From NCBI RefSeq assembly GCF_020520425.1, contig NC_079491.1, positions 40,290,027 through 40,354,026 on the forward strand: a stretch of DNA of 64,000 nucleotides, written 5' to 3'. A program made the translations under genes and the position numbers. This document shows positions 20,527 to 58,597 of this stretch, one piece after another. The notes beneath the pieces are model-generated. The model was not told the DNA's origin. It saw only the letters and a list, made by a program, of their open reading frames with translations, and ran no database searches. Source of the DNA: Spinacia oleracea (taxonomy: Eukaryota > Streptophyta > Magnoliopsida > Caryophyllales > Amaranthaceae). How positions within the stretch are numbered: the first letter of the stretch is position 1; each line of letters begins with the position of its first letter.

Positions 20527-20583
20527 CTCTTTAAAATAAAACGAACAACTATTGTCTTTTATTAAAAAGGAAAATCCCTTAGC

Positions 20584-23033: not shown

Positions 23034-23047
23034 GGCTCGTGATACCA
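23034..23047 (-). other. copia primer binding site, interior 1
   Basis: TGGTATCACGAGCC on the minus strand, one base from LTR C, resembling the complement of the 3' end of initiator tRNA-Met. Confidence 0.75.
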
Positions 23048-23048
23048 C

Positions 23049-24418
23049 TTTTAGGTTATGATACATATGACAATTCATAAATCATGCGGAAACAACCATT
23101 TAGCCAGGAATACATATTATTTACACATAATCATATAGCATAGTTTAGATGCATACTCTTTGTTGCGTGCCTTCCCTAGCTGCGCCCGAACCGAACAAGA
23201 ACAAGTCTTTAGGACTCCAAGTGTCGTCCCTCCGTAGATAGTCCACAGCACGTCCGGATCCGCCTTAAGATTGACCAACTAAAATCGCCCTTAAGGTACT
23301 AGAATTTTCGGCACTCTTAGGTAAGAAATATGACTGAATTTTTCTCTCAAAACTCACTTTGAATACTTGAATTAATCTCTGAAAATATGTGACCCTAGGC
23401 ACGTATTTATAGAGTTATGGAAAGGGAATTGGAATCCTAGTAGGATACGAATTAATTAAACTTAGAATCCTACAAGAACTCTAATTAATTAATTTATCCT
23501 TTTAGGAATAGGAATTTAATCATATACTAATTCTAATAGTTTTAGGAATCATGCATGAACACAAACTCACACACACACGGCAGCCACGAGGGCCGCCCAT
23601 GCGTGTGCGTGCGAGCAGCAGCCCACGCAGCGAGGCCATGGCCTTGGCGCGCGCTGGGCCTGCCTTGCGGTGGGCCTGGGCGCTGCCTTGGCTGGGCGCG
23701 CGTTTGGCTTGCTGGGCGATGGCCCGACTTCGTGCTGGGCCTTCGTCCGGCAGGCCTCGTCCGATGCTAATTCGTACGATACGCTTCCGATTAAATTCCC
23801 GGTTCCGGAATTCATTTCCGATACGAACAATATTTAATATTTCCGATTCCGGAATCAATTTCCGTTTCGAACAAATATTTAATATTTCCGTTTCCGGAAT
23901 TATTTTCTGATTCCGATAATATTTCCGATTCTGACAATATTTCCGTTTCCGGCAATATTTCCGATTCTGGCAATATTTCCATTTCCGATAATATTTTCCG
24001 ATACGTACCATGTTTTCGTTTCCGGCAACATCTACGACTTGGATAATATTTATATTTCCGATACGATCCATATTTCCGTTTCCGGCAATATCATCGTTTC
24101 CGGAGTATTCATTTCTTGCCTGTGACGATCTCAGCTCCCACTGAAACCAAGATCCGTCGATTCCGAATATCCATAGATGGAGTATCTAATGCTATTAAAT
24201 ACTTGATCCGTTTACGTACTATTTGTGTGACCCTACGGGTTCAGTCAAGTGTAAGCTGTGGATTAATATCATTAATTCCACTTGAACTGAAGCGGCCTCT
24301 AGCTAGACATTCAGCTCACTTGATCTCACTGAATTATTAACTTGTTAATTAATACTGAGCCGCATTTATTAGACTTAACATAGAATGCATACTTGGACCA
24401 AGGGCATTATTTCCTTCA
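23049..24418 (-). repeat. copia LTR C (shared by interiors 1 and 2)
   Basis: 1370 bp, same subtype as B. Its first two bases are TT rather than TG. Its left side joins the primer binding site of interior 1 (5' LTR position) and its right side joins the purine tract of interior 2 (3' LTR position). Minus-strand TATA box at 23,403-23,411. Confidence 0.92.
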
Positions 24419-25284
24419 GTCTCCCACTTGTCCTTAGGGACAAGTGTGCATTTCCTAATTCCTTTGTCGCTCGATGCTTGCTCTTGAACATAAGGTAAGA
24501 GTCGTCATCCTTATTATGTCCAGAGGTGTTCCTCGGTTTCAGAGTTCAACTGATCAAATAAACAGATAATCATAGCCTATGATTCATCCGAGCACGGCCA
24601 TGCATTTCACAGTTTCTAGCTCTCCGAGTGGCCTTGTACAACTTTTAAGCATCTCATCCCGATTTATGGGAGGACAATCCCAATCTTGCGATCTTGAGAT
24701 TAGACTTCGTTTGATAGGTGATTACCTGAGCGTTGCCTTTATAGCCTCCTTTTACGGTGCGACGGTTGGTTAACGTCAAAGCAACCAGTTCTCAAAAAAG
24801 TAATCTCAAATCACTCAGGTATTGAGGATTTAGTGTCTAATAATTTTAATGAAATTTACTTATGACAGATTTTCATCTCTTACAGTAAAGTTTCATAGGT
24901 CTTGTCCGATACTAGTCTTCCCAAAGTAAGTATCTATGCAAATGATTATGACATTGCCACGTCCACATAGTTCAAGAAACAGAACTACTAGTCATCTTGC
25001 ATTCTAGTCGTCTAATGTTTTCTATGCGTCCAATTTTATAAAAAACTCCGACTAGGGACCATTTTCAACCTTTGACATTCAAGTTCACTTGATAGACATT
25101 TCTTAGTCACAGGACTGGTCCTGACAGTCTATCTTGAATATATCGTCAAATTGAAGGGACTCGTCATTTAATAAACCACAAATTAAGTGGAAAAATGAAT
25201 TCTTTTCATTTATTGTGAATGATTAACCAATAATGTTTTACAAAGATTTAAACTCTAAAACTTTAAAACATTAAATCAGAGACA

Positions 25285-28200
25285 TCAAAGCCATTCTCCA
25301 ATATGCTTGATTCCCATAGCTGCAGTGTGCGAGTTGTGCTTCGCCTGCGGCAGAGGTTTAGTCAATGGATCTGATATGTTGTCATCAGTTCCAATTTTGC
25401 TTATCTCGACTTCTTTTCTTTCAACGAACTCTCGTAGAAGGTGAAATCTACGAAGTACATGCTTGACTCTCTGGTGGTGTCTAGGCACCTTCGCCTGTGC
25501 AATAGCTCCGTTATTATCACAATACAGGGCTATTGGTCCTTTAATGGAGGGGACTACACCAAGTTCACCTATGAACTTCCTTAGCCATATAGCTTCCTTT
25601 GCTGCTTCATGTGCAGCAATGTACTCCGCTTCAGTTGTAGTATCCGCAATGGTGCTTTGCTTAGCACTTTTCCAGCTTACTGCTCCTCCGTTGAGGCAGA
25701 AGACAAACCCAGACTGTGATCTGAAATCATCTTTGTCGGTTTGGAAACTTGCGTCCGTATAGCCTTTAACAATTAATTCATCATCTCCACCATAGACCAG
25801 GAAGTCATCTTTGTGCCTTTTCAGGTACTTAAGAATATTCTTGGCAGCAGTCCAATGCGCCTCTCCTGGGTCTGACTGGTATCTGCTCGTAGCACTGAGT
25901 GCATACGCAACATCCGGGCGTGTACATATCATAGCATACATTATTGAACCAATCAATGATGCATATGGAATCCCATTCATTCGTCTACGCTCATCAAGTG
26001 TTTTTGGGCACTGATTCTTGCTTAGAGTCATTCCATGAGACATGGGTAGGTAGCCTCGCTTGGAGTCCGCCATCTTGAACCTATCAAGCACCTTATTGAT
26101 ATAAGTGCTTTGACTAAGTCCAATCATCTTTTTAGATCTATCTCTGTAAATCTTGATGCCCAATATGTACTGTGCTTCTCCTAGATCTTTCATCGAAAAA
26201 CATTTCCCAAGCCAAATCTTGACAGAGTTCAACATAGGAATGTCATTTCCGATAAGTAATATGTCGTCGACATATAATACTAGGAAAGCAATTTTGCTCC
26301 CACTGACCTTCTTGTATACACAAGATTCGTCTGCGTTCTTGATGAAACCAAAGTCACTGACTGCTTCATCAAAACGTATATTCCAGCTCCTGGATGTCTG
26401 CTTCAATCCGTAGATTGACTTCTTTAGCTTGCATACCTTTTTAGCATTCTTTGGATCCTCAAAACCTTCAGGCTGTGTCATAAACACAGTTTCTGTTAAA
26501 ACGCCGTTTAAGAAAGCAGTTTTGACATCCATCTGCCATATTTCGTAATCGTAATATGCAGCGATTGCTAACATTATCCGAATAGATTTTAGCATTGCAA
26601 CTAGTGAAAAGGTTTCATCGTAATCCACACCGTGGACTTGCCTGTAACCTTTTGCAACCAATCTAGCTTTGAAAACTTCAAGTTTCCCATCCTTGTCCTT
26701 TTTCAGTTTGAAAACCCATTTGCTTCCAATGGCTTGGTAGTCATCTGGCAAATCGACCAAATCCCATACTTGGTTTTCAGACATGGAGTCTAATTCAGAT
26801 TGCATGGCTTCTTGCCATTGCTTGGAGCTAGGGCTCGTCATAGCTTGTTTGTAAGTCGCAGGTTCATCACTTTCAAGTAATAGAACGTCATAGCTCTCGT
26901 TCGTCAAAATACCTAAGTACCTTTCCGGTTGAGATCTATATCTTTGCGATCTACGCGGGGTAACATTTCTAGATTGACCATGATTCTCACCAGATTCTTC
27001 TAAAGATCTATGAGTTTCATCCTAAATGTCATCTTGAACATTCTCTAGAGTTTGTTGTTCGACTCGAATTTCTTCGAGGTCTACTTTTCTCCAACTTGTC
27101 ATTTTGGAAATGTGATCTTTCTCCAAAAAGACACCATCTCGAGCAACAAACACCTTGTTCTCAGATGTATTGTAGAAGTAATACCCCTTTGTTTCCTTTG
27201 GATAGCCCACAAGGATACATTTGTCAGATTTTGGATGAAGTTTGTCTGAAATTAATCGTTTGACGTATACTTCACATCCCCAAATCTTAAGAAAAGACAC
27301 ATTTGGAGGCTTTCCAAACCATAATTCATATGGAGTCTTTTCGACAGCTTTAGACGGAGCTCTATTTATAGTGAGTGCAGCTGTATTTAGTGCATGTCCC
27401 CAAAATTCTAATGGAAGTTTGGCCTGACCCATCATTGACCTGACCATGTCTAGCAAGGTTTTGTTCCTCCGTTCCGACACACCGTTCCATTGTGGTGTTC
27501 CAGGAGGAGTCAATTCTGATAGAATTCCACATTCTTTCAGATGGTCATCAAATTCATAGCTCAGATATTCACCGCCTCTATCAGACCGCAGTGCCTTAAT
27601 CTTCTTGCCTAATTGATTCTCTACTTCACTCTGAAATTCCTTGAATTTGTCAAAGGATTCAGACTTATGCTTCATTAGGTAGACATAACCATATCTACTG
27701 AAGTCATCAGTGAAAGTGATAAAGTAGCTGAAACCACCTCTAGCATTTGTACTCATTGGTCCACATACATCCGTATGGATTAAACCCAATAGTTCATTTG
27801 CTCTTTCTCCAACTTTAGAGAAAGGTTGCTTTGTCATTTTGCCAAGTAAACATGATTCACATTTACCATAATCCTCTAAGTCAAATGGTTCTAGAATTCC
27901 TTCCTTTTGAAGTCTTTCTAAGCGTTTCAAGTTTATATGGCCTAATCGACAATGCCACAGATAAGTGAGATCTGAATCATCCTTTTTGGCCTTTTTGGTA
28001 TTTATGTTATATACTTGTTTGTCGTGATCTAATAAATAAAGTCCATTGACTAATCTAGCAGATCCATAAAACATCTCTTTAAAATAAAACGAACAACTAT
28101 TGTCTTTTATTAAAAAGGAAAATCCCTTAGCATCTAAGCAAGAAACTGAAATGATGTTTTTAGTAAGACTTGGAACATGGAAACATTCTTCCAGTTCCAA

Positions 28201-29250
28201 AACTAGCCCGGAGGGCAACGACAAATAGTAAGTTCCTACAGCTAATGCAACAATCCGTGCTCCATTTCCCACTCGTAGGTCGACTTCACCCTTGCTTAAC
28301 TTTCTACTTCTTCTTAGTCCCTGTGGATTGGAACATAAGTGTGAGCCACAACCTGTATCTAATACCCAAGAAGTTGAACTAGCAAGTATACAGTCTATAA
28401 CGAAAATACCTGAAGATGGAACGACTGTTCCGTTCTTCTGATCTTCCTTTAGCTTCAAGCAATCTCTCTTTCAATGCCCCTTCTTCTTGCAGTAGAAGCA
28501 TTCAGATTCAGAAGTGGGTTGACTGACCTTCCTCTTTACAGATTTGGCGCCAGTTTGCTTAGTTGGGCTGGCCTTGTTGCCACCTTTCTTAGCATTCCTC
28601 TTCTTTCCAGATTTCTTGAACTTGCCCCCACGCACCATAAGCACATCCTGCTTATCACTTTTGAGCGTCTTTTCAGCGGTCTTCAGCATACCGTGAAGCT
28701 CAGTGAGCGTTTTGTCCAGACTATTCATACTGTAGTTCAGTTTGAACTGATCATACCCGCTATGAAGAGAATGGAGGATGGTGTCTATAGCCATTTCCTG
28801 AGAAAATTGCTGATCCAGCCGACTCATATTCTCAATGAGTCCAATCATTTTGAGAACATGTGGACTTACGGGCTCGCCTTTCTTAAGCTTGGTCTCAAGA
28901 ATTTGCCTATGAGTCTCGAATCTTTCGACTCGAGCCAGATCTTGGAAAATGTTCTTCAACTCATTGATGATTGTGAAAGCATCTGAGTTGATGAACGTTT
29001 TCTGCAGATCCGCACTCATGGTGGCGAGCATTAGACATTTCACATCCTTGTTGGCATCAATCCAACGATTGAGGGCTGCCTGAGTGACCCCGTCGCCTGC
29101 GGCTTCGGGCATCGCCTCTTCTAGGACATACTCCTTTTCTTCCTGCATAAGGACTATTTGCAAGTTCCTTTGCCAGTCAAGGAAGTTTTTCCCGTTCAAC
29201 TTCTCCTTTTCGAGAATTGATCGAATGTTGAATGAATTGTTGTTTGCCAT
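25285..29250 (-). pseudogene. copia gag-pol polyprotein, interior 2, two nonsense codons
   Basis: One frame of about 1321 codons starts with ATG at 29,250 (MANNNSFNI); the open frame extends further upstream but this start fits the gag family. Order: gag with UBN2-type core (residues about 1-240), zinc knuckle CFYCKKKGH...C (251-264), protease LDTGCGSH (Asp298), integrase (HCRLGH zinc site, DDE core), reverse transcriptase with YVDD at about 993-996, RNase H near the C-terminus. An in-frame TGA (28,471-28,473) falls within the zinc knuckle, and a TAG (27,022-27,024) lies between integrase and reverse transcriptase, where interior 1 is open. No frameshift is seen, so inactivation is recent and by point change. 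The copia lineage is not assigned. Confidence 0.93.
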
Positions 29251-29556
29251 ATTAAAAACTACAATTGAAAAGAATAAACAAATAAATAACCATTCACAGT
29301 TTCTCTTAATAAACTTAAATTCTAGCATACATGCATAATTCAATGTTTATCAAGCATTTTATTCAAGTTATGTGTTCCGGCAGGTGTGAATAAAATGATT
29401 CCAAGATCCTAAAATCATTGAAGAACTAAGCACAGTTTGTCGACTTAATCCTAAAACATCTTAGGTAAGCAAAAGCCTTTTGCTAATAGTCTAGAAACTA
29501 TTCTTGGTTGATAGGTACGTCTAAGAACTTATTAGGTAAACCTATCGATTTTGCCA

Positions 29557-32006
29557 CGACATAAAAGGACTCCTTACTTATATCGTTGAGTTTCACCAAA
29601 ACTAACATGTACTCACAATTATTTGTGTACCTTGCCCCTTTAGGACCAATAAGTAACACCTCGCTGAGCGAAAACTATTACTAGATTGATGTAAAGGATA
29701 TCCAAGCAAGTGTATATTTTGGCATGGCACCTTTTAACTCAAGTTTAAAGTTTGGAACTTAAGGCTCTTACTATGTTGGTTAGATTTTAAGTGAACTAAA
29801 ATCCTTAATCATGCAACATAATCAAGCTTTTGATCTCATGCATTTTAAGACATATTTAAAAGCAATAAATAACTTAAAACATGCATAAGATAAATGTGAT
29901 CTAGTATGGCCCGACTTCATCTTGAAGCTTTAACTTCAAAGTCCGTCTTTAAAATCTCCGTGGGAGGCACCATTTTCTTCAATTAGGATAAGCTATAATT
30001 AAAACTAATTACAACTATTTGATGGTACGCAGACCATATTTGAATTGAAAAACAACTTTGGTACTTTAGACCAATTACATTCAAATTAATGGTACGCAGA
30101 CCATATTTACTATCCTATTTGGGCCATACTAGTCACTTCATAACCTGCAAAACAGTACATATACAATATATACCATTCACCCATTCATTATCATGAATGG
30201 CCCACATAGCTGGTTAGTTAAACACATTATGCATCACGTAAACATTTGCAGAAATTAATCAAGGGCACCAATAATCTACCAATTATTCAGTCCTTATTAA
30301 TTCTAATCAAGTTGTTTTAACCTTAAGGATTTGTAGACCTAATCAAGAGTTTATGACTAAAAAGGGCTCCCACTTAAACCAATAAATTCATATGCTTTAC
30401 TAATTTTAAACATAAAAATGTATTTCTAGTCTAACCGGAAACATACAAATTTAATTAAAATTTAAAGCTCATATAAATTTATAATTGAATCCATAAAGTT
30501 TAATTTAATTTCAGTCGTATTTAAATTAATTCATGATTTTAATTTTAGTAAAATAATTAGAATAAATAAAATTTATTATAATTACAATATTCAAAATTAA
30601 AATCCAAGAAAATAATTTAAATCATTAATTTTAAAATTAATTAAAATTACGTAAACTGAAAATTTCAAATTAAAATTTCAAAACGATCTAATCGCAACGC
30701 AACAACCTTACGCATCGCACGCCCATGGGCCACACGCACACAGCCATCGCTGGCCATGTGCGCGCAGCCCATGCGCTGCGTCGCATAGCTGCTGCTGCTT
30801 TCCTTCGCAAGGCCTCACGCGAGCTGGTGCTCGCTGCGCGCGCGCCAGCGCTCGATGCACGCGAGCCATCGCTCGCTGCGTTCGCTCGCCAGCGCTCGCT
30901 TGATGCTCGCCAGCGCTCGCTGTGCGCGCTCGCCAGCGCTCGCCAGCGCGCTCGCCAGCGCTCGCTGTGCGCGCTCGCCAGCGCTCGCTTGATGCGAGCC
31001 AGCGCTCGCTGCGCGCGCTTGCGCGAGGCAGTGCGCGCTGTGGCGCAGCTCGCTTACTGCCCACACGCGACTGCTTTGCCTTGCTTTCGCCCTCGCCCAT
31101 TCGTCCATTGCTCATAGCACACGACACAAGGCAGGGCTGCTGCCTTGTGCTCGTGCACCATGGCCTTGCTCATTGCATTCGTGCCGCATGGGCGACGAGC
31201 TCCCTTGCTCGTCGTCACATGCCCGCACTATACAACATCCCTTAAGGGTAACACGTAGCGTCCATTGCTTTGTGCGTGCAAGTTATATGAGCGAATCGCA
31301 TAAAATTTAAAAATTTATATTTAAAATTAATGACAAATTAATAAATAATATTAATTTCATAATTTTAGGGCGAAAAATCGAAAATTTATTATTCAATTGA
31401 TTTCCGATTAACATGGATTCAAGCCTAGGTCATAAAAATTTAAAATTTATCATAAATTTACAATTTTTATGGTGGTTTTCAATCATAGATATCTAATTAA
31501 ATTATAATTAATTATGAAAATCAAATTAATTCTAAATTATTCTAATTTTCAACAAATTAATCATAATTACAAATTAGATTGCATAATTAACAAGGCTAGG
31601 CATTCAAACTTGTTAAACATATACTGTAGGTCAATCAAAAATTCAAGATTTATCAACAAGAATCGCAAATATTTAATTTAACATCTTAAATTTACGAAAT
31701 TTTGCATTTGAAAAACTAAAACCTCCGAAAAGTCATAGTTAGGCTTCGAATTTGAGAATTCTGGGTTCGGCAGAAAAATACTACTTTTGTCAAAATTTTA
31801 GAATGCCTTTTACATGCGGAATTGACACAAAAATCACTCGATTTGGATGAGTAACGAAGAAACTGCCGAAAAACTGCGTACGTATAATTAAATAAACGCA
31901 ATTTGCAATTAATTAACAATTACGAAAATTAATCACCCCTTTTAATTCTTGCAAATTTGTAATATTTAACCATGTTCATGCAATTTAGATTATGAAAATA
32001 ATAAGA
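29557..32006 (-). other. copia interior 2 leader
   Basis: Non-coding, AT-rich, with the GC-rich minisatellite at 30,825-31,035. About 2.45 kb of leader lies between the primer binding site and gag, long for a copia element. Confidence 0.8.
30825..31035. repeat. GC-rich minisatellite in copia leader (CAGCGCTCGC units)
   Basis: Runs of GCCAGCGCTCGCTGTGCGCG and shortened versions, 10- to 30-bp spacing, about nine copies. The matching array in interior 1 (21,860-22,080) has different variants (GAGCCATTGCTCGCTGTGCG), so it has turned over since the copies separated. Confidence 0.8.
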
Positions 32007-32020
32007 GGCTCGTGATACCA
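32007..32020 (-). other. copia primer binding site, interior 2
   Basis: TGGTATCACGAGCC on the minus strand, one base from LTR D, resembling the complement of the initiator tRNA-Met 3' end. Confidence 0.75.
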
Positions 32021-32021
32021 C

Positions 32022-33416
32022 TGTTAGGTTATGATACATATGACAATTCATAAATCATGCGGAAAAAACCATTAAGCCAGGAAAACATATTATTTACACA
32101 TAATCATTTAGCATAGTTTAGATGCATACTTTTTGCTGCTTGCCTTCCCTAGCTGCGCCCGAACCGAACAAGAACAAGTCTTTAGGACTCCAAGTGTCGT
32201 CCCTCCGTAGATAGTCCACAGCACGTCCGGATCCGCCTTAAGATTGACCAACTAGAATCGCCCTTAAGGTACTATTATTTTCGGCACTTTTAGGCAAATT
32301 TGTGACTTAATTTTTCTCTCAAAAACTCACTTTGAATAATTGAAAACTCGTTGTAAATATGTGACCCTAGGCACTTAATTATAGAGTTTATGGAAAGGAA
32401 TTATAATCCTATTAGAATACAAATCTATTTAATTATAACCCTACTAGGATTCTAATTAAACAAAGTTTATCTATTAGGATTAGATTTAATCATATTACGA
32501 ATCCCGGTAGCCTTAGGATTCCGAGTAACACACACGAGTGGCGCACAAGCACCGCACGCCCGCACGCAGGCCTTGCGGCCCACGCCGAGCGCACAGCGCA
32601 AGGCCCACTGTCGCAGCCTTGTCCGCGCGCGCGCCCAAGCTTCGGCTGGGCCTGGCTTTTGCGGTGGGCCTGGTCGTATGCTTGGCGTGTGGCTGTTGCG
32701 CTTGGCTTGCTGGGCGATGGCCCGGCTTCGTGCTGGGCCTTCGTCTGGCAGGCCTCGTCCGATGCTAATTCGTACGATACGCTTCCGATTAAATTCTCGA
32801 TTCCGGAATTCATTTCCGATACGAACAATATTTAATATTTCCGATTCCGGAATCAATTTCCGTTTCGAACAAATATTTAATATTTCCGTTTCCGGAATTA
32901 TTTTCCGATTCCGATAATATTTCCGATTCTGACAATATTTCCGTTTCCGGCAATATTTCCGATTCCGGTAATATTTCCATTTCCGATAATATTTTCCGAT
33001 ACGTACCATGTTTCCGTTTCCGGCAACATCTACGACTTGGATAATATTTATATTTCCGATACGATCCATATTTCCGTTTCCGGCAATATCATCGTTTCCG
33101 GAGTATTCTTTTCTTGCCTGTGACGATCTCAGCTCCCACTGAAACCAAGATCCGTCGGTTCCGAATATCCATAGATGGAGTATTTAATGCCATTAAATAC
33201 TTGATCCGTTTACGTACTATTTGTGTGACCCTACGGGTTCAGTCAAGAGTAAGCTGTGGATTCATATCATTAATTCCACTTGAACTGAAGCGGCCTCTAG
33301 CTAGGCATTCAGCTCACTTGATCTCACTGCATTATTAACTTGTTAATTAATACTGAACCGCATTTATTAGACTTAACATTGAATGCATACTTGGACCAAG
33401 GGCATTATTTCCTTCA
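32022..33416 (-). repeat. copia LTR D (5' LTR of the outer element)
   Basis: 1395 bp, TGTTAGG...TTCCTTCA, same subtype as LTR A, with a few percent difference. Its TATA region (32,374-32,383) reads TATAATTAAG, altered from LTR A. Confidence 0.92.
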
Positions 33417-34200
33417 GGGGGGAGTCTTGCCGGAAAGCTCGTACTCCTACTAATGATACAAGACGTTGTTTCATTTATATTATGCGCAGGAATTCCGTCG
33501 GTATGGCCCGACACTCGGTATGGCCCGATTTTATTGTTATTATATTTGGTGTATGGTTGGCTCCCATCACCTTTTCCTTTATGGAATATTCTTTTGGCCC
33601 GTTCGAAGCTTATTCTAATTAAATTGTGAGTCTAGAGTCGAGTCAAGTGTCGAGTCTTGTATTCATGATTGGTTGTTAATTATTATATGGATTTCGCATG
33701 ATGATTAGTACTTAGCGAGTGATGCATGTATTAGTTTCATTTCACTCTATTCTTGTAAGTACTCAGCTTTTGCTGACTACGTGCTTTGTGTGTTTTGGTC
33801 ATGGCCTTCGCCTTAATGACCCTATGATGATCTATCATTTGCACTTGCATTGATGGGGAGTAGAATAAAATAGCAGGTTGGTTGATCGGAATCATGTGGC
33901 TTGGGATGATCGAGAGAGTTGCATGTTTTCGTATTTTGAAACTATTTAATTATACTTTAATTATGTTTTGAATTCGTTGAACTATTTATACTTTGGTTTT
34001 GGGCCATTATGGTTCCAAATTGTAGGAGGCCTCAATATTTCATTAATTATGTTTTTCAAAAGTTAGTTGACATTTAATTCCGCTGCGTAATTCTAGTAAT
34101 AGCCTTAACCGTTATCACGGTGGCGGTAATGCTTTAGTAATTCCTTTATTTTAAGTTGGAAAATGGTTTAATAAAAGCAAGGAATTATTAGGGTGTTACA
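33417..34200 (+). repeat. Ty3/gypsy 5' LTR, second part
   Basis: Continues the LTR after the copia complex (six G, then AGTCTTGCCGG, as at 63,617 on). Ends GGTGTTACA, the inverse of the LTR start TGTAATACC with one change. Confidence 0.92.
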
Positions 34201-34203
34201 AAG

Positions 34204-34217
34204 TGGTATACTAGAGC
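34204..34217 (+). other. gypsy primer binding site
   Basis: TGGTATACTAGAGC, three bases after the LTR. It resembles the usual plant initiator-tRNA-Met site TGGTATCAGAGC with a 2-base expansion. Confidence 0.65.
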
Positions 34218-35004
34218 TTAGTTTCATTCCTTCTTTGTAGTAAACAATACTACAAAATGGTAATCGGAGACTAATGCTTCTTTGTAGTAATTCATACTAC
34301 AAAGTGGTATTTGCGGAACTTTAGGATTTTTAAATATTATTTTCCTAAAGTCAAAACGTATTATTTTGAGTACTCAATATTTTAAAGGTCAAATATCAAT
34401 TATTTTGGGTCGTTTGAAATGAGTTGAAAAGTTGGATTATTACTTAATATTAATTAAATTTTTCGAAATTTTTTATTTTTCCGAATTTTCCGAATTAATT
34501 TCAAATTTATTTTATTAATTTCGGAAATTATTTTATTTAATTATCCGAATTATTTTAATCATTTATTTATTTATTTATTTTTATTCGAATATTATTTCGA
34601 ATTTATGTTTAAAATTTTCGGATTTCTTTTTTTTATTTATCCGAAATTTATTTATTTATTTAATCAATAATTCTTATTAATTTTCGATTTTAATTTAAAT
34701 AATTTCAACAAAGTTAGGAGTTATTTCTTAATTAATTTCGAATATAAATATTATTTTCAAGTGAGAAATGGGTAGACTAAGAAGGGCATATTAGTCTAAG
34801 AATGCATATTATGTGACAATGTGATTTATTAAGTGCCATGTATATGTTCTAACCATGTTTTATCTTGCTTTATGTGATTAATTGCATCATATTTCATGTT
34901 GAGCATATATTTGTGCATTGAAATTGTATGGCTCCACGAACTATTTATTGTATCCTTTTGGGGTTGGAATTTCTATGGAAACGCGTTAGTAAGACTTTTG
35001 AGTT
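34218..35004 (+). other. gypsy leader, AT-rich
   Basis: Non-coding; strings of ATTTATTTATTT and TTTCGAA motifs. A repeated CTTCTTTGTAGTA unit occurs near 34,230 and 34,280. Confidence 0.6.
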
Positions 35005-35712
35005 GTGAAATTTCAGGAATTAAGGATGCTACCTTCTAAGTTCACCAGTCTAGGATACTTAGAGAAGATGGATAATAAGACTCCTCGCACGTATGTTCAG
35101 AAGATCGTGTTTGCTTGTGACTATTTGGCTTCGACCAAGAATATGCCCCATCTTAGGCACAAAGATATGATGGCTAGTATGGTTATACATTGTTTACCCC
35201 ATATGAACCCTTACATAGACCTCAAGAACAAGTTCAGTGACATGCATTTTGGTGATGGTACCCCTAATTGGTACAAATATGGGACTAGTGATGGTAGGTG
35301 GAAGTATGACTCTGAGGTTCTTGCTACTATCTTAGAGGTTGCGGAAAATTGCTATGAGGATGGGAAGTATTCTGCGGGTTTTGGTATGGGCTATGGAGGA
35401 GTAGAAAGTGATGGTGAGGATGGCATGATCCATGATGAGACAACTAGTGAGGTTGAGGAGGATAGTGATGATGATGTGGTAGAGATTGAAAATCCTAACC
35501 CTATAGTTCCTGAACCCACTATTGAGATATCCATTGGATCTGAAGATGAGTTTGAAGAGAATAATGTGGTTGATAGTGAGCCACAGCAAAATGATGAGGC
35601 TATGGATGAAGACTCGGATCCGGAAGAAGACTTGGATGATCCTAATGATCAAGACTTTACTCCAGAGCAATACAAGGAAAGAAATGATCGTCGTGATGAC
35701 GTTAGTCTCTAG
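35005..35712 (+). CDS. Extra ORF upstream of gag, acidic protein of unknown function
   Basis: The open frame has 235 codons; the first ATG is codon 8 (35,026). Just before it lies a splice-acceptor-like TTTCAG (35,012-35,017), so an upstream leader exon is possible. The N-terminal half (to about residue 130) is mixed, with TYVQKIVFACDYLAS, HKDMMASMVIHCLPHM and a glycine-rich GFGMGYGG. The C-terminal 90 residues are strongly acidic (Asp/Glu runs such as EEDSDDDVVEIE and EDSDPEEDLDDPND). No membrane segment, zinc finger or enzyme motif is seen. Extra genes before gag are known in Ogre-type gypsy elements, but I do not recognise this protein. It has stayed open while gag-pol decayed, so it may be real. 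Function unknown. Confidence 0.55.
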   Translation: MKFQELRMLPSKFTSLGYLEKMDNKTPRTYVQKIVFACDYLASTKNMPHLRHKDMMASMVIHCLPHMNPYIDLKNKFSDMHFGDGTPNWYKYGTSDGRWKYDSEVLATILEVAENCYEDGKYSAGFGMGYGGVESDGEDGMIHDETTSEVEEDSDDDVVEIENPNPIVPEPTIEISIGSEDEFEENNVVDSEPQQNDEAMDEDSDPEEDLDDPNDQDFTPEQYKERNDRRDDVSL

Positions 35713-36168
35713 AGAAATGTAATCCTTAGTTTTATTTTTCGTTGATTAATAAAGTGGCAAAGCTACTATTTATGGTTTTAGTTTTATCATAGTTGGAGAA
35801 TAAATGCTATGGCATTAGTGGATGTAAGACTTATTCATTGGAGTTTTAATAAAAGAATAGAATTTCTTTTTTCGTTATCCTTTAAGTTCAATTCTAAATT
35901 CTAAGTCTCGTGGGTATCGCAAAGGGATTACTTGTTATTTCTTCAATGAAATTTCATGTGCAAGGTGGTTTAGTAGCAACCATCTAAATTTACTTGCATC
36001 GAATAGTGGGGTGAGAAGGCCCAAGAATGGCGCCAACTCTTCCCCTAGGTTGCGCTTAAATGTGTTCTTGTTGTGAGTAGGTTCGTTGTTGAACTAGTGC
36101 CTAGCCTTAGTAATGTCAGGTCCAACCAATATTAAAGTTAGCCTTTTTATTTATTCAGGAGAAGGGAT
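35713..36168 (+). other. Spacer between extra ORF and gag
   Basis: No coding signal. Ends with an acceptor-like TTATTCAG (36,152-36,159) just before the gag ATG, so gag could be expressed from a spliced transcript. Confidence 0.5.
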
Positions 36169-38181
36169 ATGGCTAACCAAGAGATTTCTGAAGTGGTTAG
36201 ACAACTAGCTGAGGTAGTTCGAGACCTAGCTCAAACCAGAGCCAACCCAATGCCTGATCCGGCTGGGGAAATGTTTAAGAAAATAGCTCAAAGCAAGCCT
36301 CCACTCTATAGCGGAGAGATTGAACCTAGTGTGCTTGAGAACTGGTTGAGAGAGTTTGATAAACTCATAGTAGCTGTGAATTGCCCCGAAAACCTTAGGG
36401 TGAATAGTGTTGTGTACTACCTAAGAGGTGAAGCTGATTTATGGTGGCAACGATGTGAAAATACCCTTAAAGCCACACTTAACTTTAGATGGGAAGCATT
36501 CAAAACTGCACTAAGGAATAAGTTTTACCCACCTTATCTGAAAAAGCAAAAGGCGCAAGAGTTCATTGAACTCAAAATGGGAGGTCTGTCAGTGACGGAA
36601 TACTATTCTAAGTTTATAGAGCTGTCTAGGTTTGCACCTGAAGTGGTGGCAACAAAAGAGCTTAGGGCTCAAAGATTTGAGAATGGTTTGACCATGGACT
36701 TACAGTTGTTGTTGTCTGGAGAGACCTTTACCTCATTAGACACCCTGTACGGAAAAGCTGCTCACATGTATGGGTTACAGCAAAGGAAGAATGGTAGTGC
36801 TGAAAAGAGAAAGGATGGTGGAAGCTCGAATCAAGGGAATAACCATCAGAATCAGGGGAATTTTAAGAAGCACAAAGGAAATGGGAATTTCCAGTTTAGG
36901 GCTAACAATGGTGGTAATCGCACCAACCAAGGTGGTGGAAATCAGTCTGGAAGGAATGGAGTACGGACCTACGAATGTAGGCGCTGTAACATGAATCACC
37001 CTGGAAAGGATTGTGATGGAAACTTGGTGACTTGTAGATTCTGTCAGAAGTTAGGCCATAGGGAGTATGAATGCTATTCTAAGAATGGAAAGCCTAACCA
37101 AGGTAATCACCAAGGCAATAACCGGAATAATCAGAACCGGAATTGTGGAAATGGAGGTGGAAACCAAAGGAACTGCCAAGGTGGTAACAATGGCAATAGC
37201 AATGGCAATCACCAGAACCATGGAAAGCCTGGAGGGAACCAACAGCAGAATGGGAACCGAAACAGCAATGGGAACACCAATGGAGGTGGCTATAACAAAG
37301 GAGTTGCCCAAGGAAAGTTGAATGTGATATCTAGGCAAGAAGCGGAGACTTCCTCTGGCGTCATAGCGGGTACTTTTTCTATTAATTCCGTTCTAGTTAA
37401 AGTTCTATTTTATTCTGGTGCGACTTATTCTTTTATATTAGTAGATGCTTTGGGGAAACTAGGGTTGAAAGGGCCTGAACCAATTGAGGTACCTATAGTC
37501 ATACCTACTGGTAGTATAGTGAAGTGTACCAAAATTCATAGAGATGTGCCTTTGACCATAGCCAAGACCGTGTTCTTATCTAACCTAATCGAATTTGAGT
37601 TAGGAGAGCTAGATGTAATTCTAGGGATGGATTGGTTGGCCAAGTTTAAAGCCAAAATAGATTGTGAGAAGCAGAAGGTTAACTTGAGGTCTAGCCTAGG
37701 CAAAGTAGTGTCATATCGTCGTTTTGGTAAGCCTAAGAACATAGGAATCATCACGGCAATGGAACTCGTGAAGCCAGTCAATAAAGGGAACCCAGCCTTC
37801 TTATGTAATGTGAGGAACCTAGAGCATGTGATCAAGGATCAGCCTGAGGATATTGCAGTAGTCAATGAATTCCTTGATGTATTTCCAGAAGAGATCCCGG
37901 GGATGCCTCCCAATCGACCTATTGACTTTACCATAGATTTAGTGCCTGGAACCGCCCCTATTTCAAAAGCACCTTATCGAATGGCTCCAGCAGAAATGAA
38001 TGAGTTAAAAAGCCAATTAGAGGATCTATTGGAGAAAGGTTATATTAGACCAAGTGCATCGCCTTGGGGAGCACCAGTTCTGTTTGTGAAGAAAAAGGAT
38101 GGAAGTATGAGGCTCTGTATAGACTACAGGGAGCTCAATAAGGTCACAATCAAGAACAAGTATCCATTACCTAGGATAGAA
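36169..38181 (+). pseudogene. Ty3/gypsy gag, protease and start of reverse transcriptase
   Basis: ATG at 36,169. Gag core (Retrotrans_gag) covers about residues 40-205, with WLREFDKL and [12 protein letters not shown] Gln/Asn/Gly-rich linker carries two zinc knuckles, [13 protein letters not shown] and [14 protein letters not shown] (36,974-37,073). The protease active site at residues 413-420 reads LFYSGATY: the catalytic Asp is Tyr (TAT at 37,411-37,413), so the protease should be inactive. The protease fold continues (VILGMDWL), then reverse transcriptase begins ([30 protein letters not shown]). The frame is cut by the CACTA element after the TSD copy at 38,179-38,181 and resumes in phase at 58,601. 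Confidence 0.92.
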
Positions 38182-38194
38182 CACTACTAGAAAA

Positions 38195-38562
38195 ACGACA
38201 TTTAACGACGAACAATTTCGTCGTTAAAAGCCTTAATTTTCGTCGTTAAAACCTTTAACGACGGCCATGATGTTCGTTGTAACAGGCTCCGTCGTTATTG
38301 GCTTTAAAGACGATGTTCGTCGTTAATAATTAATGTTTCTTAACGACGAATTACCGTTTCGTCGTTACGTATTAACGACGGATTATCGGTTCGTCGTTAA
38401 TAATTAACGACGGATTATTGTTTCGCCGTTAACTTTTAACGATGAAATCATAATTCGTCGTTAATAATTAACGACAAAGTTAAAACTTCATCGTTAAAAG
38501 TTAACGACGAAACAATAATCCGTCGTTAATTGTTAACGACGAACCGATAATCCGTCGTTAAA
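38195..38562. repeat. Subterminal TTAACGACGAA repeats with long hairpin
   Basis: About 15-20 copies of AACGACGA or its inverse. The arms 38,372-38,446 and 38,487-38,561 (75 bp each) are inverted copies with about two mismatches, separated by 40 bp. Confidence 0.9.
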
Positions 38563-38911
38563 TGCTTATTCACTATGATCAATTAAGCAATAACGACCAA
38601 CATATCCCTTGTAAAATGTCCTTTCCAACGGGCCAAAAATTTGAATTTTTGGCAATAACGACCAACTATTCTGTCGTTAATATTGCAATCATAATTATAT
38701 TATTTGCGCTTTTCAAAGCACCTACATTTTCCCTGTCCAACAATGTAGATAACTATAAATCAATTAAAAAAAATAAAATTTCATTACTCAAAATATTTTT
38801 GACAATAGAATTTCAAGTTATGTTAAATGAAAAATCACATCCCCTTGTCTTTAAATTCTAATAAAGATAAGTAATTCTTGTTCAATCTAAAAGAACAAAA
38901 TAAAAATCTAA

Positions 38912-41900
38912 CTAGTTGAAGTATTCTGTACGTCTTGGAGTGCCATCTTTTGAAAAGCGTTGCAAGAACACTTCTTTAAATGCATTAACCTCTTCTTCAA
39001 CTGAACTCATGCGACTCTTCAGTGCATTGTTTTCTTCCTGTACCGTATCCACGCGATTGGTAAGAACATGATTTTGTTTGTTTGCCTCATTCAACTTAGA
39101 TTGAAGTTCCGACCTACTAGGTTGTGGTCCTGATAATTCTTTAAGTGTTATTCCTCCTCCAAAACCCAAAACCCGATCACGAGACTTCGACTTAAACACC
39201 TTTTGTGCTACCTATATAAAGAAGCAAAAAAGTTAAATATCATGGCATGGGAAAGTAAAAATAAAACCAAAAAACATATAAATGATGAAAAAGTACCTGT
39301 ACATGGGAAAGTGTTGGTTCTTCTTCCATTATTTTCTGAATTTCCTCCTACAACATATGTAACCATCTCAATTAGTATCATACACGGGTGGCTCTAATTA
39401 AAGGCCAATTGTCAAAGTTCTAATCTACTAGTTAAATTTCAAGATCCAACAATATTCTTTTAATTTAGTTCATTACTTTTGATGAGTCTGAGTGACAAAA
39501 TTTTAGGATCATTATTTACCAACCTGTTCTTATAAGTTGTCTCGTTGTATAACAAAACAAAAATTTACCGGGCTACACCACTGAATATATGATTCTGATC
39601 CGTCTATTTTTCTCGCTAAGTTTGTGCTTTGACATTTGTGGAATACACTCAGTGTCGTTCTCCTAAATCTTTTGTTTTTTATTCATCTCTGCAGTTTTGC
39701 TCTCTTAGGGTCCCGTGAAAGTCACAGGTCATTATCATTTGTAACAATGACAAAGTGCTGTTCATGGCATCAATTCAATCTTGGGAGATAGGATATCCAG
39801 CATCAACAACAATGGGACACCTGAACCTGCAACAGCTTTCCTAGAGCGGTTGTCTGCACAGACACAGAAGTTGGAAGAACACTTGAATGGGAATTCTCAT
39901 TTTTTTCAAGATGTTGATCTAGACTTTAACCTTGAAAATCCCGAGTCTGGTATTGAGGCTGCTCTAACAGCCTTGAGGAAGAAGGAGGAGGATCTACAAG
40001 AAGAAGAAAGAATGGTGATTTGGAACATGCTGAATTGAATCAAGCAAAGGAGGAATTAGAGCGTCGAGAGAAGGAAATTGCAGCAGCTTCTTCCAAGCAG
40101 GAGAAATTGGAGGAGGAGTTAAGACAGGCTAATATGAAGTTGATTTCACAGGCAAGACATGTAGAAGATATGAAATTTCTATTGAAGGAAAGAGAACAGG
40201 AGATTGCTGCATCACAGTCCATATTGCTGCCCAACTAGAAATAGAAAGTCAAAGAGGAAAGCTCAGAGTTGCAGAGGTTCTGAATAAGGATTTTGAGCTT
40301 GATCTATCATTGAAGAGGGGTCTATTGATGAATCTACTGGGGGAATAGGATGAGGAGAAGTGTTCTTTGCAAAAAGTAACCAGTGAAGTGTCTACTCTTC
40401 GAGAGGAGATGAATTTGAAGAACAGTGAATTTGAAGAAAACAACAATCTTCTGGAAGTGAAGGAAAAAGAATTGGTAGAGGCTAAACTAGAAATTCAGCA
40501 CTTAATATCTGAACAGAAGTCTCTATTAGACCTATTAAGCAATAACTGATATGTTGCAGTTGGGATGATTAGACCTATTAAGGTTTCTTTATTGCAAAGT
40601 CGCATAACAGCAACCAATACTGGGAAATAGATGAGCAGATAATAGGTCTAATCCTGCTTTTACTAACTTCTGCTCAATTGTTTTCGTTGTGTAAATAGTT
40701 GTTGTAAGCTGACTGTAATTCCAGTATTTAGATAAGGGGATTAGTGGTAGTGAGCTATGTACATGGTCAAGAACAAGAACTGGATTTATTCTTTCAGGTC
40801 AATGCAACTCGTATACCGGTTTAGTATAACATAGGTAAAAAAATCAACTCGTATACCGGTTTAGTATAACATGAATGATGAGAAAGATAATAAACAACTA
40901 AATGAAACTTTGAATACCAACCAGAAAAAAAAAGGCAGCATTGTTAGATAACTACTCATTCCATTTAGCAGTTTGCAAAGCTTGGAAATGAATAATCACA
41001 TTATATCTAACTATTAGCAGTTTGCAAAGTTTATTCTAATGAAAACGTAGTTTATTTCACCATAAAGCTAACATAGGTGAGAAAAGACATACATATTTTT
41101 GTGTCGTTTCTGCATTTGGGAGGTTAGTGCCTTTCTTGCGAGTTGCGTGGAATACATCTACCAAAGTTGGTTTTTCCCCCTTATTCGCTCCCTTCCATAA
41201 AACAACAAAGCACCAATAGTTAAATATACTTTATCCACATATATCTCAAAAAACACAAAATAATACTTTAATTATCTTTCTCACCAATTCATCCCAAATG
41301 ATTTGTCTAGTAGGCTTGCTCCCTGTTCGATGCATTAGCTCTTTTGCATAACTGTGCCTATTTTCAGAGTTCCTTGCACTCCTTTCCTGTAATTTATTTA
41401 AGTATTATCATCATTGCATATATAAGAAACAAAAGCATATCATGTATTTAAGTGAATTTACCTTAAACTTTTCGTCAGAATAAACCTCATTTATAAGCCA
41501 CTTCCAATCCTTATCGTCAAGTCCACTAGGCGGCTCACCTTTGTATGCAGCTTCTAAGGTGATTTCCTTTTTAGTGACATTATTCCTTAACAAGTCTGAC
41601 CTCCAGTTTGTCCATAACTCTCTCATATGGCCAAGGACATGTTGCTTGTAAATGTCCATGCTTTTATTAGTGAAGACATCCTAATGTAAAAGAAATATCT
41701 ATGTTACACAATAAACATCTAATAATTTAATAAAAAACAGTGATTTGTTTTCACCAAATAATAATTCTTTTCTTGCCAATGAAAATGCAATGCACCATAC
41801 CAACACTCACGCTGAAAGTGTATGCAAGAAGAAACAAGAAAAGGCAACCAGCAGTAGAGGACAAAGGAGCAGCAGAGAGAACTACAACAGCCTTGGCAGA

Positions 41901-43365
41901 GGGGTGGAACGACCTCCCTTAGTGGACGCAGTCCTGATGTTCATTAATTGCTTATGTCCTAGTCATTTCTGCTTAATTACTTTTGTCTTATTATTACAAA
42001 TAACTTCCTCTATTTCTTGCTGTTACTCTACTGTGACAATTCTGGTATGCTTGGAATTTCCGAGTTCAACACTTCAGCCGCGTTCAGCCTAAGAAGCTGA
42101 AATAATTTCAATGGAAGTCACTTCAGTTTATTCCTTTGTTTTTTCCTACTTTATTCTTGCTATTCTCTCTTATGCTCTTGGTTAACAAGTTCATTATCAG
42201 ATTCTTAAGGCATCAGCTTATTAAAAAAAATCCAGTTGACATCATTTTCCCTAGGAAATACGGTGTAGTTTTGCAGTGATATACAGGTTCTAAGCTATCC
42301 CTGTTGATTTTTCATTCTCAAGATTCATCTATTCAAACAATTGAACAATCAACACCCCGCCAAATCGTTATTGACATAAATTTGCAAGGCTTGTGAGTGA
42401 TAAACGATGCCATTATAGCATCCACTTTAGACTAACACACAGCAAAGTTCAAACTTCATACTTCATGAGAACTGCATTTTATATTATTTAAATATTGATG
42501 ATGGGATATTAATTAATTTCGACTACCAACATAATCAAAAAACTTTTTTTTGGACCCACCTGTGTACAATCCCCAGCCACAGTTCATACGGAGTATTCAA
42601 TTATAATTCTAATTAGCAGTTCAAAGAACACACGTCTTGCAACTTAGCTATCTAAAAAACAGGTAACTATTCCCTCTTCCTGAATTTCTAATTAGCAGTT
42701 CAAATAACAAAATTGAGGAAGGGATGATCCAGAGGCACAGACAGACACAACACTCACAGTGCTCTATCATGCCTCACCTTCAGTCAGAACAACAACCACA
42801 CCACCACACAGAAAAAACAAACATGTCAACAAAAACATAGTAGGCCCAAACTGAAAGTTACATGTCTAATTACATTCTTACCGTGACGGCACTCCACATG
42901 TGTTCCTTTTCTTTATCTCCAATATCATCCCATTTGTGCACTCTCACCGGGCAAATGTTTGTATCTCGCACTATAATCCCCAAATGCCGTGCAAATACTT
43001 TATGATTCGTTCCAACAGCTCTATTGTTGTAGAAAGTAATCTCCAACTTCTCATCGGGTTTAAGCTTGGCAATTTCCTTGCATTTGTTTCTTCCCCTCTT
43101 TTTCTGATTCACGTTCTTCACAGTGGAAGAAGAGCCAACACCTTCAACAAAAACAAATAATCAATAAAAGTATTAAGTATATAGGATAATCAAGGAAATT
43201 TTAAAAAGATAAACCATTACCGTTCACATCTTCTTGAATTGTTTGAGATATCTCTATCTCATTGACATGTTCCTTTTCAATTCTGTCTTCACAAGCCTTG
43301 TTATCATGGTTATCAAAGTTCTCGTTTCCATTTTGAATGTGCATATCCTCATCTTCTTGATTAGT
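38912..43365 (-). pseudogene. CACTA second gene, Transposase_24 (Ptta/En/Spm, TNPA-like) protein
   Basis: Exons by splice sites and similarity on the minus strand: 43,365-43,221 (acidic, NQEDEDMHI...), 43,141-42,882 (RGRNKCKEIAKL, DEKLEITFYNNRAVG, ARHLGIIVRD), 41,680-41,462 (YKQHVLGHMRELWTNW...), 41,386-41,285 (RSARNSENRHSYAKELMHRT), about 41,200-41,092 (KPTLVDVFHATRKKGTN), and 39,199-38,912 (RVLGFGGGITLKEL followed by a coiled coil to the stop). This is the usual layout of the Transposase_24 family, proposed to bind subterminal repeats and help TNPD. Its 5' exon and start are not clear. A foreign gene piece sits in its last large intron. No stop was noticed in the listed exons, so this gene may be better preserved than TNPD. 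Confidence 0.75.
39745..40560 (+). pseudogene. Captured coiled-coil protein gene fragment, no introns visible
   Basis: On the opposite strand to the transposase gene, three consecutive frames read a continuous coiled coil: GTPEPATAFLERLSAQTQKL and ALTALRKKEEDLQEEERM (39,781-40,015), then HAELNQAKEELERREKEIAA and EKLEEELRQANMKLISQARH (40,024-40,235), then VSTLREEMNLKNSEFEENNN (40,367-40,549). Frame changes near 40,018 and 40,240-40,360 break it. Heptad-like Leu/Glu/Lys pattern throughout. It looks like an exon of a host long coiled-coil protein; I cannot name the gene. Its place inside a transposase intron marks it as a capture or insertion. Confidence 0.65.
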
Positions 43366-43390
43366 TCAGTTATGTTCGTTCAAAACTTAT

Positions 43391-43473
43391 CAGTTCTGTT
43401 CTGATCAGATCAGGACTAATCAGAACTGTTCTGTTCTGTTCTGAACAGTTCTGATCAGATCAGAACAGTTCAG
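43391..43473. repeat. Inverted repeat rich in CTGATCAG/CAGTTCTG
   Basis: CAGTTCTGTTCTGATCAGAT (43,391 on) and the near-inverse CTGATCAGATCAGAACAG (43,451 on) face each other, with more GTTCTG units between. It lies in the gap between the two transposase genes. Similar motifs recur at 51,771-51,830 inside the inner CACTA. Confidence 0.7.
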
Positions 43474-46194
43474 TTCTTGTACAATTCAGTACTTACTTCC
43501 ATCTTGAGCCAACTTTTAAAGTTTTTGCACCATTCCTCTTCAGAGATTCCAGGATTCGTCAATGCTTGTATTTCAGAATACTCTCTGTGAATATATTAAT
43601 AAAAATTCATTTGAAGTGACAAACTTTATAAAAAAAAAGAAAAGGAAGTTATTAAGAAAAGTGAAATTAACTTAATAAAACTCGTTCTCTTACCTAAGAA
43701 AAGGCTGAACCTCATCACAATTCTTCAAAATATAAATGTGAGCGTCATCCAATTCCCCCTTCTCAAGATCTCTAACACTTGCATCCCCTAGGCTTCGACC
43801 AGAATGACTAAAAATAGGCAGGGTATCATCATGACCTTGGCTATTTTCATAATTTCGATCAAGTCGATTAAATCGGGTCTCTATACTCTGCATATACCTA
43901 GAGCAACGATTCATGCACTCTTCTGCTACATAGCCCTCCGCAATCGAAGCCTCCGGATGAGCCCTATTCCTTATGTAAGACTTCAGCTTATACATGTATT
44001 GTTCTATTGGATACATCCATCTGCACTGAACTGGCCCTCCCATTATAGCTTCGTTAGCTAAGTGGATAGGTAAATGCATCATCACATCAAAGAAGGAAGG
44101 AGGAAAAACCTTCTCCAATTTGCAGAGAGTTATAGGAATTTGGGACTCTAGTTGCTTCAAATCATCCACATTAAGTACTTTCGCACATAATAAAGTAAAG
44201 AACAATGACAACTCAATTAATGCTTCAAGTACAAGTGGAGTGAGAAGACCACGTATTGCTAAAGGAAGAAGATGCTCAAGTATTACATGACAATCGTGGC
44301 TCTTCAAACCCGAAATCTTAGCTTCCTTCGAGTTTACACAATAAGATATATTTGATGAAAAACCATCAGGGACTTTTAGCTCTTTCAAAAAGTTACAGAA
44401 TGTTTATTTTTCGGAGGAGGAAAAAGTATATGGAGCTGGAGGCATCTTCCATTTGTCCCCTACTTTGATAGGGTGCAATGTAGGCCGCAACCCCAAATCT
44501 TTCAAGTCATGACGTGATTTTAAAGTGTCTTTTGTCTTCCCTTGAATATTCATTATTGTCCCAAGAACACTATCACATATGTTCTTCTCAATGTGCATCA
44601 CGTCTAAATTGTGTCATAAGAGATTAGTCTTCCAGTATGGAAGTTCAAAGAAAATACTTTTCTTATTCCAAGTGTCCCTCCTAACTTCATGAGATATTTT
44701 TGTCTTCACACTTGGATCCTTAGACAATATAATGTTCTCGAGATCCTCAAGTTCATTAAGAATATCATCTATTGAAGAAGGTTGTGGAGGTCCTTCACGC
44801 TCGACTGTTCCATCAAATGATTTCTTATCCTTTCTCTATCTATGATTCATTGGCAAATAGCAGCGATGACGCATATAGCATTCCTTTCTTCCGTGAGGTA
44901 GCCTCATTGACCGAGTATCCCTAAGACAACAAGGGCATGCTAGATACCCCTTAGTGCTCCAACCAGATAACATCGCATAGGCTGGAAAATCATTAATGGT
45001 CCACATTAAAGCTGCACGTAGCTGAAAATGACGTTGCGTTGCTGCATCAAAGGTCTCCACACCAACTTCCCACAGATCTTTCAATTCCTCAATTAGAGGC
45101 TGCAAATATACGTCAATTGCATCACCAGGACCTTTAGGACCCGGAATAAGCATTGACAAAATCATATTAGACTGCTTCATACAAAGTTCAGGAGGCACAT
45201 TATACGGAATAAGGATAACAGGCCATATACTATATGATGTTTTTGAATTTGCAAAGGGTTGAAAACCATCACTAGCAAGCCCGAGCCTGACATTTCGAGG
45301 GTCTGATGCAAAATTAGGATGCTCTGTGTCAAATGACTCCCAAGCCGTTCCGTCAACTGGATGTCTCATTGTACCACCTTTCTTCTTTTTCACATGATGC
45401 CATGTCATCAAAGAAGCAGTCTTGGAGCACATAAATAGTCTTTGCAACCTCGGTTTTAATGGAAAGTATCGTAGTGTCTTCTGAGGTATTCTCTTACCAT
45501 TCGATTTACACTTCTCTTCCCCATTGTGTTTGTTACTCTTCCATCTTGATGCACCACATATGTCACAGGCATTCAACTTCTCATTCTCCTTCCAATAAAG
45601 CATGCAATCATTGACACATGCATCAATTTTTTGATATGACAAACCAAGGTCTTTCATTACCTTCTTAGACTTATTATAAGACTTTGGCAAATTTGATCCC
45701 TTGGGAAGAAGATCCTCCTTTAAGAAATCTAAGAGCATGGTAAATGATTCGTTGGTCCAACGACCCAAAGTCTTAATATGAAGAAGTTTTAAGAGGGCAG
45801 ACATTCTAGAACTCTTGCAACCTTCATAAACCGGATCTTGAGAATCCTTCAACAAGTTATAAAACCTTTAGGCATCTGCATTTGGTTCCTCAAGATTACT
45901 ATCATTCAAGGAAGAACCAACATTATTGCACTCGGAATATAAATCCCGAATAATACCAAGCATTTCATCTAACTCGTTTCCATTTTCTTCCGCGATATTA
46001 TCACTAGTAGAAAAATATTTATTTGCTGCTATGCGTTAGTGGCGTTAATTCAAAAACGCCTCTAACTAAATGATAAAATGGAGGAATCAGGTGAAGGAGC
46101 ATTCATTGGCGGTGTTAGTTTTAATTATAACGCCTCGAATCGGTGTTAATTTTTAGTTAGCGGCGTCTTCATGTATAACGCTGCAGTGTTCTAG

Positions 46195-49000: not shown

Positions 49001-49086
49001 TGTATTCTTCCTTTTGAAAGTCATGTTGCGCATTCTATCTGCTTCAATTGCTTCTTTCAAAAACATTTGACTTGTTTCAATTATCT

Positions 49087-58427: not shown

Positions 58428-58429
58428 GC

Positions 58430-58575: not shown

Positions 58576-58597
58576 AAAGATGCTAATTCTAGTAGTG

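Follow-up and report, generated by a model that had tools for sequence, protein, structure and literature searches.

In 2011, Steinbauerova et al. reportedly found extra ORFs of chromoviruses only in the 5' regions of elements from Poaceae, some of them histone H3-like. In the grass elements Retrosat2, RIRE3, RIRE8, FRetro3, ZMsat2, Sorsat2 and Brasat2, a sense ORF termed ORF0 lies behind the 5' LTR and ahead of gag-pol, as given in the accessible part of the report (PMC3485330); the ORF0 of four Oryza elements have an average Ka of 0.2574 and an average Ks of 1.6471, and ORF0 was confined to grasses among the genomes searched in that study. In sunflower, a corresponding 5'aORF is present in 500 of 523 copies of Tekay group 2 and lacking in groups 1 and 3, and its protein is described as unlike the grass proteins in sequence (PMC11728184); as far as these two sources describe them, the published ORF0 and 5'aORF proteins are mostly unalike also among themselves. 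REXdb, with a minimum length of 250 codons, counts 3372 Ty3/gypsy elements that have extra ORFs, and the encoded proteins are highly heterogeneous (PMC6317226, in the portion available).

The DNA analyzed here (the window) is a stretch of 64,000 bp from spinach, Spinacia oleracea (contig NC_079491.1, positions 40,290,027 to 40,354,026), which contains a damaged Ty3/gypsy element with a chromodomain; the element carries an extra sense ORF between its 5' LTR and gag, a trait of the Tekay ORF0 and 5'aORF, and appears Tekay-like by its domains and termini. Coordinates of the features are summarized in Table 1.

Table 1. Features of the chromodomain-carrying Ty3/gypsy element, its extra ORF and the insertions nested in it
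Feature	Position	Strand	Basis or remarks
5' LTR, left part, starts TGTAATACC	11850..14025	+	match to 61449-63622 at 96.8%; boundary from sequence
TATA boxes and candidate splice donor	inside 5' LTR left part (11850..14025)	+	
TATA box TATAAATAGG (candidate promoter)	12206..12215	+	kept in 3' LTR at 61807
Candidate exon 1, 591 nt without ATG, 3' of TATA box	12236..12826	+	
Candidate small exon, 61 nt, acceptor 13280 to donor 13341	13280..13340	+	approximate matrices
Nested Ty1/copia elements within 5' LTR, GGGGG flanking both ends	14026..33416	.	sequence comparison
5' LTR, right part, ends GGGTGTTACA	33422..34200	+	first 377 bases match 3' LTR copy
Primer-binding-site-like TGGTAT..AGAGC	34204..34217	+	three bases 3' of LTR
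Extra ORF (ORF0/5'aORF-like)	35002..35712	+	ATG 35026, 228 aa; acidic tail from about residue 127 (35404)
Candidate acceptor TTTCAG/G, 9 nt 5' of extra-ORF ATG	35016..35017	+	approximate matrices
Candidate acceptor TTATTCAG/G, 10 nt 5' of gag ATG	36158..36159	+	approximate matrices
gag, protease (active-site change), start of RT	36169..38181	+	Retrotrans_gag 1.2e-14, RVP_2 4.3e-33
CACTA transposon in RT (CACTACTAG ... CTAGTAGTG), GAA flanking both ends	38182..58597	.	
Remaining RT, RNase H, first part of integrase	58598..60499	+	Pfam
C-terminal part of integrase, chromodomain	60580..61176	+	SH3_Tf2-1 4e-27; Chromo
3' LTR, runs past window end	61451..64000	+	repeat comparison and sequence

The Pfam domains follow the order gag-PR-RT-RH-INT of Tekay/Del chromoviruses (RVT_1, 8.6e-31, RT_RNaseH, 9.5e-34, and Integrase_H2C2, 2.2e-15, in the piece behind the CACTA transposon), with an rve match of 24.5 bits in the broken integrase that lies under its cut-off of 32.6; a chromodomain 3' of the integrase (PF00385, 26.4 bits; cut-off 25.1) is a further Tekay/Del trait. 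Without the nested insertion the LTR measures about 2955 bp and has the ends TGTAATACC ... GGTGTTACA, as expected of Tekay/Del LTRs of about 2-3 kb with TG..CA ends; for comparison, intact LTRs of beet Tekay elements are given as about 2.6-3.0 kb in the accessible text of PMC3605345. The 3' LTR copy is cut by the window end, and its last part, 63618-64000, matches 33417-33798 at 97.4%. Tekay/Del chromoviruses are expected to have a primer site that matches tRNA-Met, and the motif 3' of the 5' LTR bears some likeness to a worn site of this type. The lesions of gag-pol that were reported in the earlier note are all present: the protease reads LFYSGA, with the active-site D altered, where LFDSGA is usual; the integrase frame ends at 60499 and resumes in another frame, and a stop codon lies at 60577-60579. 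The interruption of the RT frame by the CACTA transposon is an additional lesion absent from that note.

Several other features were observed in the window. Just 3' of the primer site (34233-34304) there are two near-copies of a hairpin (TTTGTAGTA, 5-nt loop, TACTACAAA) 47 nt apart; the fold of 34226-34312 has -25.3 kcal/mol, and the pair might serve in dimerization or packaging. Rfam matched mir-142 at this pair with 22.2 bits, far below the gathering score of 57; over 33400-36400, Rfam gave three matches at E up to 1, all under their gathering scores. The CACTA transposon is 20.4 kb long and contains minus-strand segments of tnp2 and DUF4218 (tnp2-type transposase, Transposase_21, 5.9e-85 at 44839-45867), a tandem array of 6.4 copies of 170 bp (51903-52985) and, just within its end, imperfect 64/32-nt repeats of TTAACGACGAA units (38340-38543). 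The copia elements are nested in each other, and their LTRs at 14026, 15502, 23051 and 32021 measure about 1.4-1.5 kb; within this cluster, 15502-20584 is duplicated at 23048-28132 (98.9% identity), and a copia-type gag lies on the minus strand at 28474-29346 (Retrotran_gag_2, 1.3e-11). At lower coordinates, a tandem array of period 197 (7221-8721) shows a higher-order periodicity of 393 with 97% matches; a 426-codon frame on the minus strand (4487-5764) with an NLI-interacting-factor-like phosphatase domain (NIF, 8.9e-25) is perhaps a host gene, and a tRNA-Ser with the odd anticodon ACT, as called by ARAGORN with bacterial settings (9108-9179, minus strand), is possibly a false call.

The extra ORF is open from 35002 to 35709 and ends in a stop codon at 35710-35712, i.e. 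it comprises 236 codons from stop to stop and 228 codons from its first ATG at 35026, in agreement with the 228-235 codons noted earlier; a GTG start at 35005 reflects the bacterial convention of the ORF tool only. The encoded protein has a mixed N-terminal part and a strongly acidic tail, as had been described: residues 1-126 are net neutral (pI 6.95), and residues 127-228 consist of 41% D+E with a net charge of -38 (pI 4.05). No basic cluster was found in the protein by a simple pattern search.

The extra ORF is real and shows a coding signature; the earlier observation of an added acidic ORF, behind the 5' LTR and ahead of gag in a gypsy element with a chromodomain, is confirmed. When 2000 leaders of 1966 nt were simulated under each of six Markov models, no frame on the plus strand reached 235 codons, and none of 5000 sequences of 702 nt with the ORF's own composition was open throughout in each of two models. 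With a training set that included gag-pol and excluded the extra ORF, the codon score was 0.175 in frame 1, compared to 0.005 and 0.052 for the two remaining forward frames, and was below zero on the reverse strand; the gag-pol pieces scored 0.122-0.156 and the leader upstream of the ORF about -0.23. Against a stop-free dinucleotide null of 0.050 +/- 0.026, the ORF scored 0.177, a value reached by none of 1000 null sequences, and its synonymous codon choice was matched or beaten in 1 of 1000. An acidic tail by itself raises such scores; the N-terminal half nonetheless scored 0.150 alone (the other half, 0.180). GC content rises from 0.24 to 0.42 across the ORF and is 0.35 behind it. Length and codon usage thus suggest that the ancestors of the element maintained the extra ORF as coding sequence.

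The fact that the ORF is open beside a decayed gag-pol, which had been considered telling, carries little weight for the time after insertion. The LTR pair differs at 58 of 2539 aligned sites, with five indel events (K2P 0.0232), which corresponds to an insertion age of about 0.9-1.7 million years with approximate rates. In this time an unselected ORF would, on average, have acquired 0.28 nonsense mutations and 0.69 indels and would have remained intact with a probability of 0.38; therefore, the intact frame in this copy is uninformative on selection after insertion.

No family was recognized for the protein, as the earlier note had stated, and nothing beyond chance was obtained from Pfam, NCBIfam, PHROGs and PDB sequences: Pfam gave no match for the ORF and no family for its N-terminal 133 residues at E up to 10. 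Matches that were taken as chance comprise NCBIfam hemN (E 0.016, 14.0 bits; cut-off 324.95), one PHROG (E 0.31), nine PDB entries that are all proteasome subunit beta type-5 (E 1.9-4.1), and the DNA mimic DMP12 with the N-terminal part (PDB sequences, E 1.4). A duplicate of a Ty3 or copia gag was rejected as well, the gag of this element giving a best blastp E of 4.7 and the copia gag no listed match. AlphaFold2 on 35023-35406, run without relatives, gave no confident fold (pLDDT 40.2, pTM 0.29). A second copy of the ORF was not present in the window. Searches for relatives of the N-terminal part gave four pattern stretches in viral contigs and 64 in genome contigs, and those in viral contigs with gag and with RT gave four and 13, none of them confirmed in any case; tblastn against plasmids and phages gave no match. 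Since all of these collections cover prokaryotes or viruses, the searches say nothing on plants.

By description, the extra ORF resembles the grass ORF0: both are sense ORFs that follow the 5' LTR and precede gag-pol in chromovirus-type elements whose LTRs are about 3 kb long and have ends of the TGT.A.ACC kind. ORF0 is also described as fast-evolving and as lacking an accepted function, which may hold for the extra ORF as well. Like the sunflower 5'aORF, the extra ORF is a sense ORF in this position in a eudicot element, Tekay in sunflower and Tekay-like here, and its protein is biased in composition and without a domain match; the sunflower protein is mostly disordered, and the spinach protein is probably so. 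The proteins themselves differ, since the sunflower protein is given as 402 aa long with 15.9% proline and a basic C-terminal nuclear signal, whereas the spinach protein has 228 aa, 6.1% proline and an acidic C-terminus. The ORF also resembles the eORF-5'F class of REXdb, which comprises additional sense ORFs towards the 5' end of Ty3/gypsy elements (PMC6317226), but with 236 codons from stop to stop and 228 from its ATG it is shorter than the limit of at least 250 codons stated there, and so would be missed by that survey. Hence, an ORF of this kind is already known, because 5' sense ORFs are described for Tekay elements of grasses and sunflower (PMC3485330, PMC11728184, in the parts available), and the view that extra genes are not a standard part of Tekay/Del elements is not supported. 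In spinach the slot holds a different, very acidic protein, the ORF0 proteins being compared by description only. A description of an acidic ORF0 was not found in the literature, which is weak evidence as subscription papers lay mostly outside the search.

Candidate splice sites were scored with approximate plant matrices and ranked among the 7333 AG and 6611 GT sites of the window. By these scores, good splice-site matches adjoin both start codons: the TTTCAG before the extra ORF, already pointed out as acceptor-like, ranks in the top 0.82% of AG sites, and the acceptor before gag in the top 0.08%, being the best acceptor of the leader (the sites are at 35017 and 36159; exon starts of 35018 and 36160 had been off by one). 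Among all 2436 ATGs of the window, an acceptor scoring 4.2 bits or more occurs within 12 nt at 18, and one scoring 6.6 bits or more at three. Against a splicing role of these sites speak acceptor 36081, which scores about as high as 35017 although no ATG of interest lies downstream of it, and the donor-like sites inside the extra ORF. Within the LTR, the candidate small exon is bounded by an acceptor (13280) in the top 0.7% of AG sites and a donor (13341) in the top 0.09% of GT sites, the latter identical in the 3' LTR at 62937. In 60 perturbations of the matrices, the ranks were a median of top 2.5% for 35017 (range 0.01-14%), 0.36% for 36159 (range 0-2.6%), 1.5% for 13280 (worst 23%) and 0.17% for 13341 (worst 1.4%); 36159 and 13341 hold under perturbation, and the acceptor of the extra ORF is weaker than that of gag.

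Upstream of these sites, the stretch 12236-12826 behind the TATA box contains no ATG, although about 5.8 would be expected and only 7 of 2000 simulated stretches had none, and no good donor was found at its end, the best one (12641) ranking in the top 5.5%. The stretch is C- and T-rich, and its 3' LTR counterpart starts at 61837. An exon 1 that extends from the TATA box at 12206 to donor 13341 would contain 11 ATGs unless another intron is removed, for which a good donor was not found.

We consider it somewhat probable (roughly 0.55) that the extra ORF is an accessory gene of the ORF0/5'aORF type in a Tekay-like chromovirus that is reached by alternative splicing; its splicing, expression and selection are what we infer from the signals described above. 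Transcription would begin in the long LTR, and the unspliced RNA, which retains the primer site, would serve as genome. Joining of the LTR donor at 13341 to 35017 would yield an mRNA in which the ATG of the accessory gene comes next, and joining to 36159 one in which that of gag-pol comes next. Either event would remove the primer site and every leader ATG 3' of the LTR, among them the 15 ATGs between the primer site and the extra-ORF ATG and, with splicing to 36159, also the extra ORF's own. One promoter could thus serve both products, with the choice between them lying in alternative 3' splice sites. As in this proposal, an early product has its own spliced mRNA in BARE; however, BARE belongs to the Ty1/copia superfamily and has one ORF, and its spliced RNA codes for Gag only (PMC3735527, in the portion available).

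The ORF may instead be a captured fragment of a host gene, or a remnant of another mobile element, within one subfamily, open through its recent origin and useless to the element. We regard this as unlikely, though worth serious attention: the ORF has no family match that would indicate its origin, the insertion is recent enough for 0.38 of unselected ORFs of this size to be still open, and plant LTR elements are known to capture genes (PMC7264820, as far as available). On the other hand, its codon choice agrees with the coding regions of the window, neither terminal repeats nor a target duplication or poly-A tail were recognized around it, and a random fragment would not be expected to have an acceptor directly 5' of its ATG.

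A role as first cistron on the unspliced leader, in which translation of the upstream frame lowers or regulates that of gag-pol and the protein itself is of little importance, seems quite improbable to us. In its favor are the 15 ATGs from the primer site to the extra-ORF ATG and the 44 onward to the gag ATG, which would make gag hard to reach on unspliced RNA, but a regulatory upstream frame need not retain 228 codons with gene-like codon use. Very improbable is an N-terminal extension of Gag, produced by splicing from within the ORF to 36159. The ORF and gag share a frame, donor-like sites are found inside the ORF (35091, 35294 and 35414), and the top acceptor of the leader lies before gag; however, on unspliced RNA ten stops in this frame lie between the two, and an in-frame fusion via 36159 requires a donor at codon position 2, for which, among these three top-5% sites, only 35091 fits, with loss of most of the ORF. 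Finally, a chance open frame in a non-coding leader, for which the length of Tekay leaders speaks (beet Bongo3 measures 11565 bp with 2561-bp LTRs, according to the accessible text of PMC3605345), is extremely unlikely in view of the simulations with all six models and of the codon scores.

If the extra ORF is an alternatively spliced accessory gene, the composition of its protein allows some speculation on function. The mixed N-terminal part of 126 residues and the strongly acidic, probably disordered tail might bind basic partners, e.g. histones or, in Gag, the basic nucleocapsid portion, and the protein might so be a chromatin- or RNA-protein-binding regulator of silencing, packaging or integration; such a function is a doubtful proposal. 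Slightly more doubtful still is a wider one, in which the protein was acquired separately into the slot between LTR and gag of Tekay elements, where grasses and sunflower have unrelated proteins, the slot being a dedicated, alternatively spliced site for exchangeable anti-silencing or chromatin-binding genes, filled here by an acidic-tailed histone- or Gag-binding protein.

Surveys with a minimum of 250 codons would overlook ORFs such as this one. The proposed splice anatomy offers a direct test of two-gene expression from one promoter in such elements. If the extra ORF proves to be conserved, the 5' slot of Tekay elements would house unrelated proteins in several plant lineages, and this would point to a general need, i.e. 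counter-silencing, packaging or targeting, that is met by different proteins.
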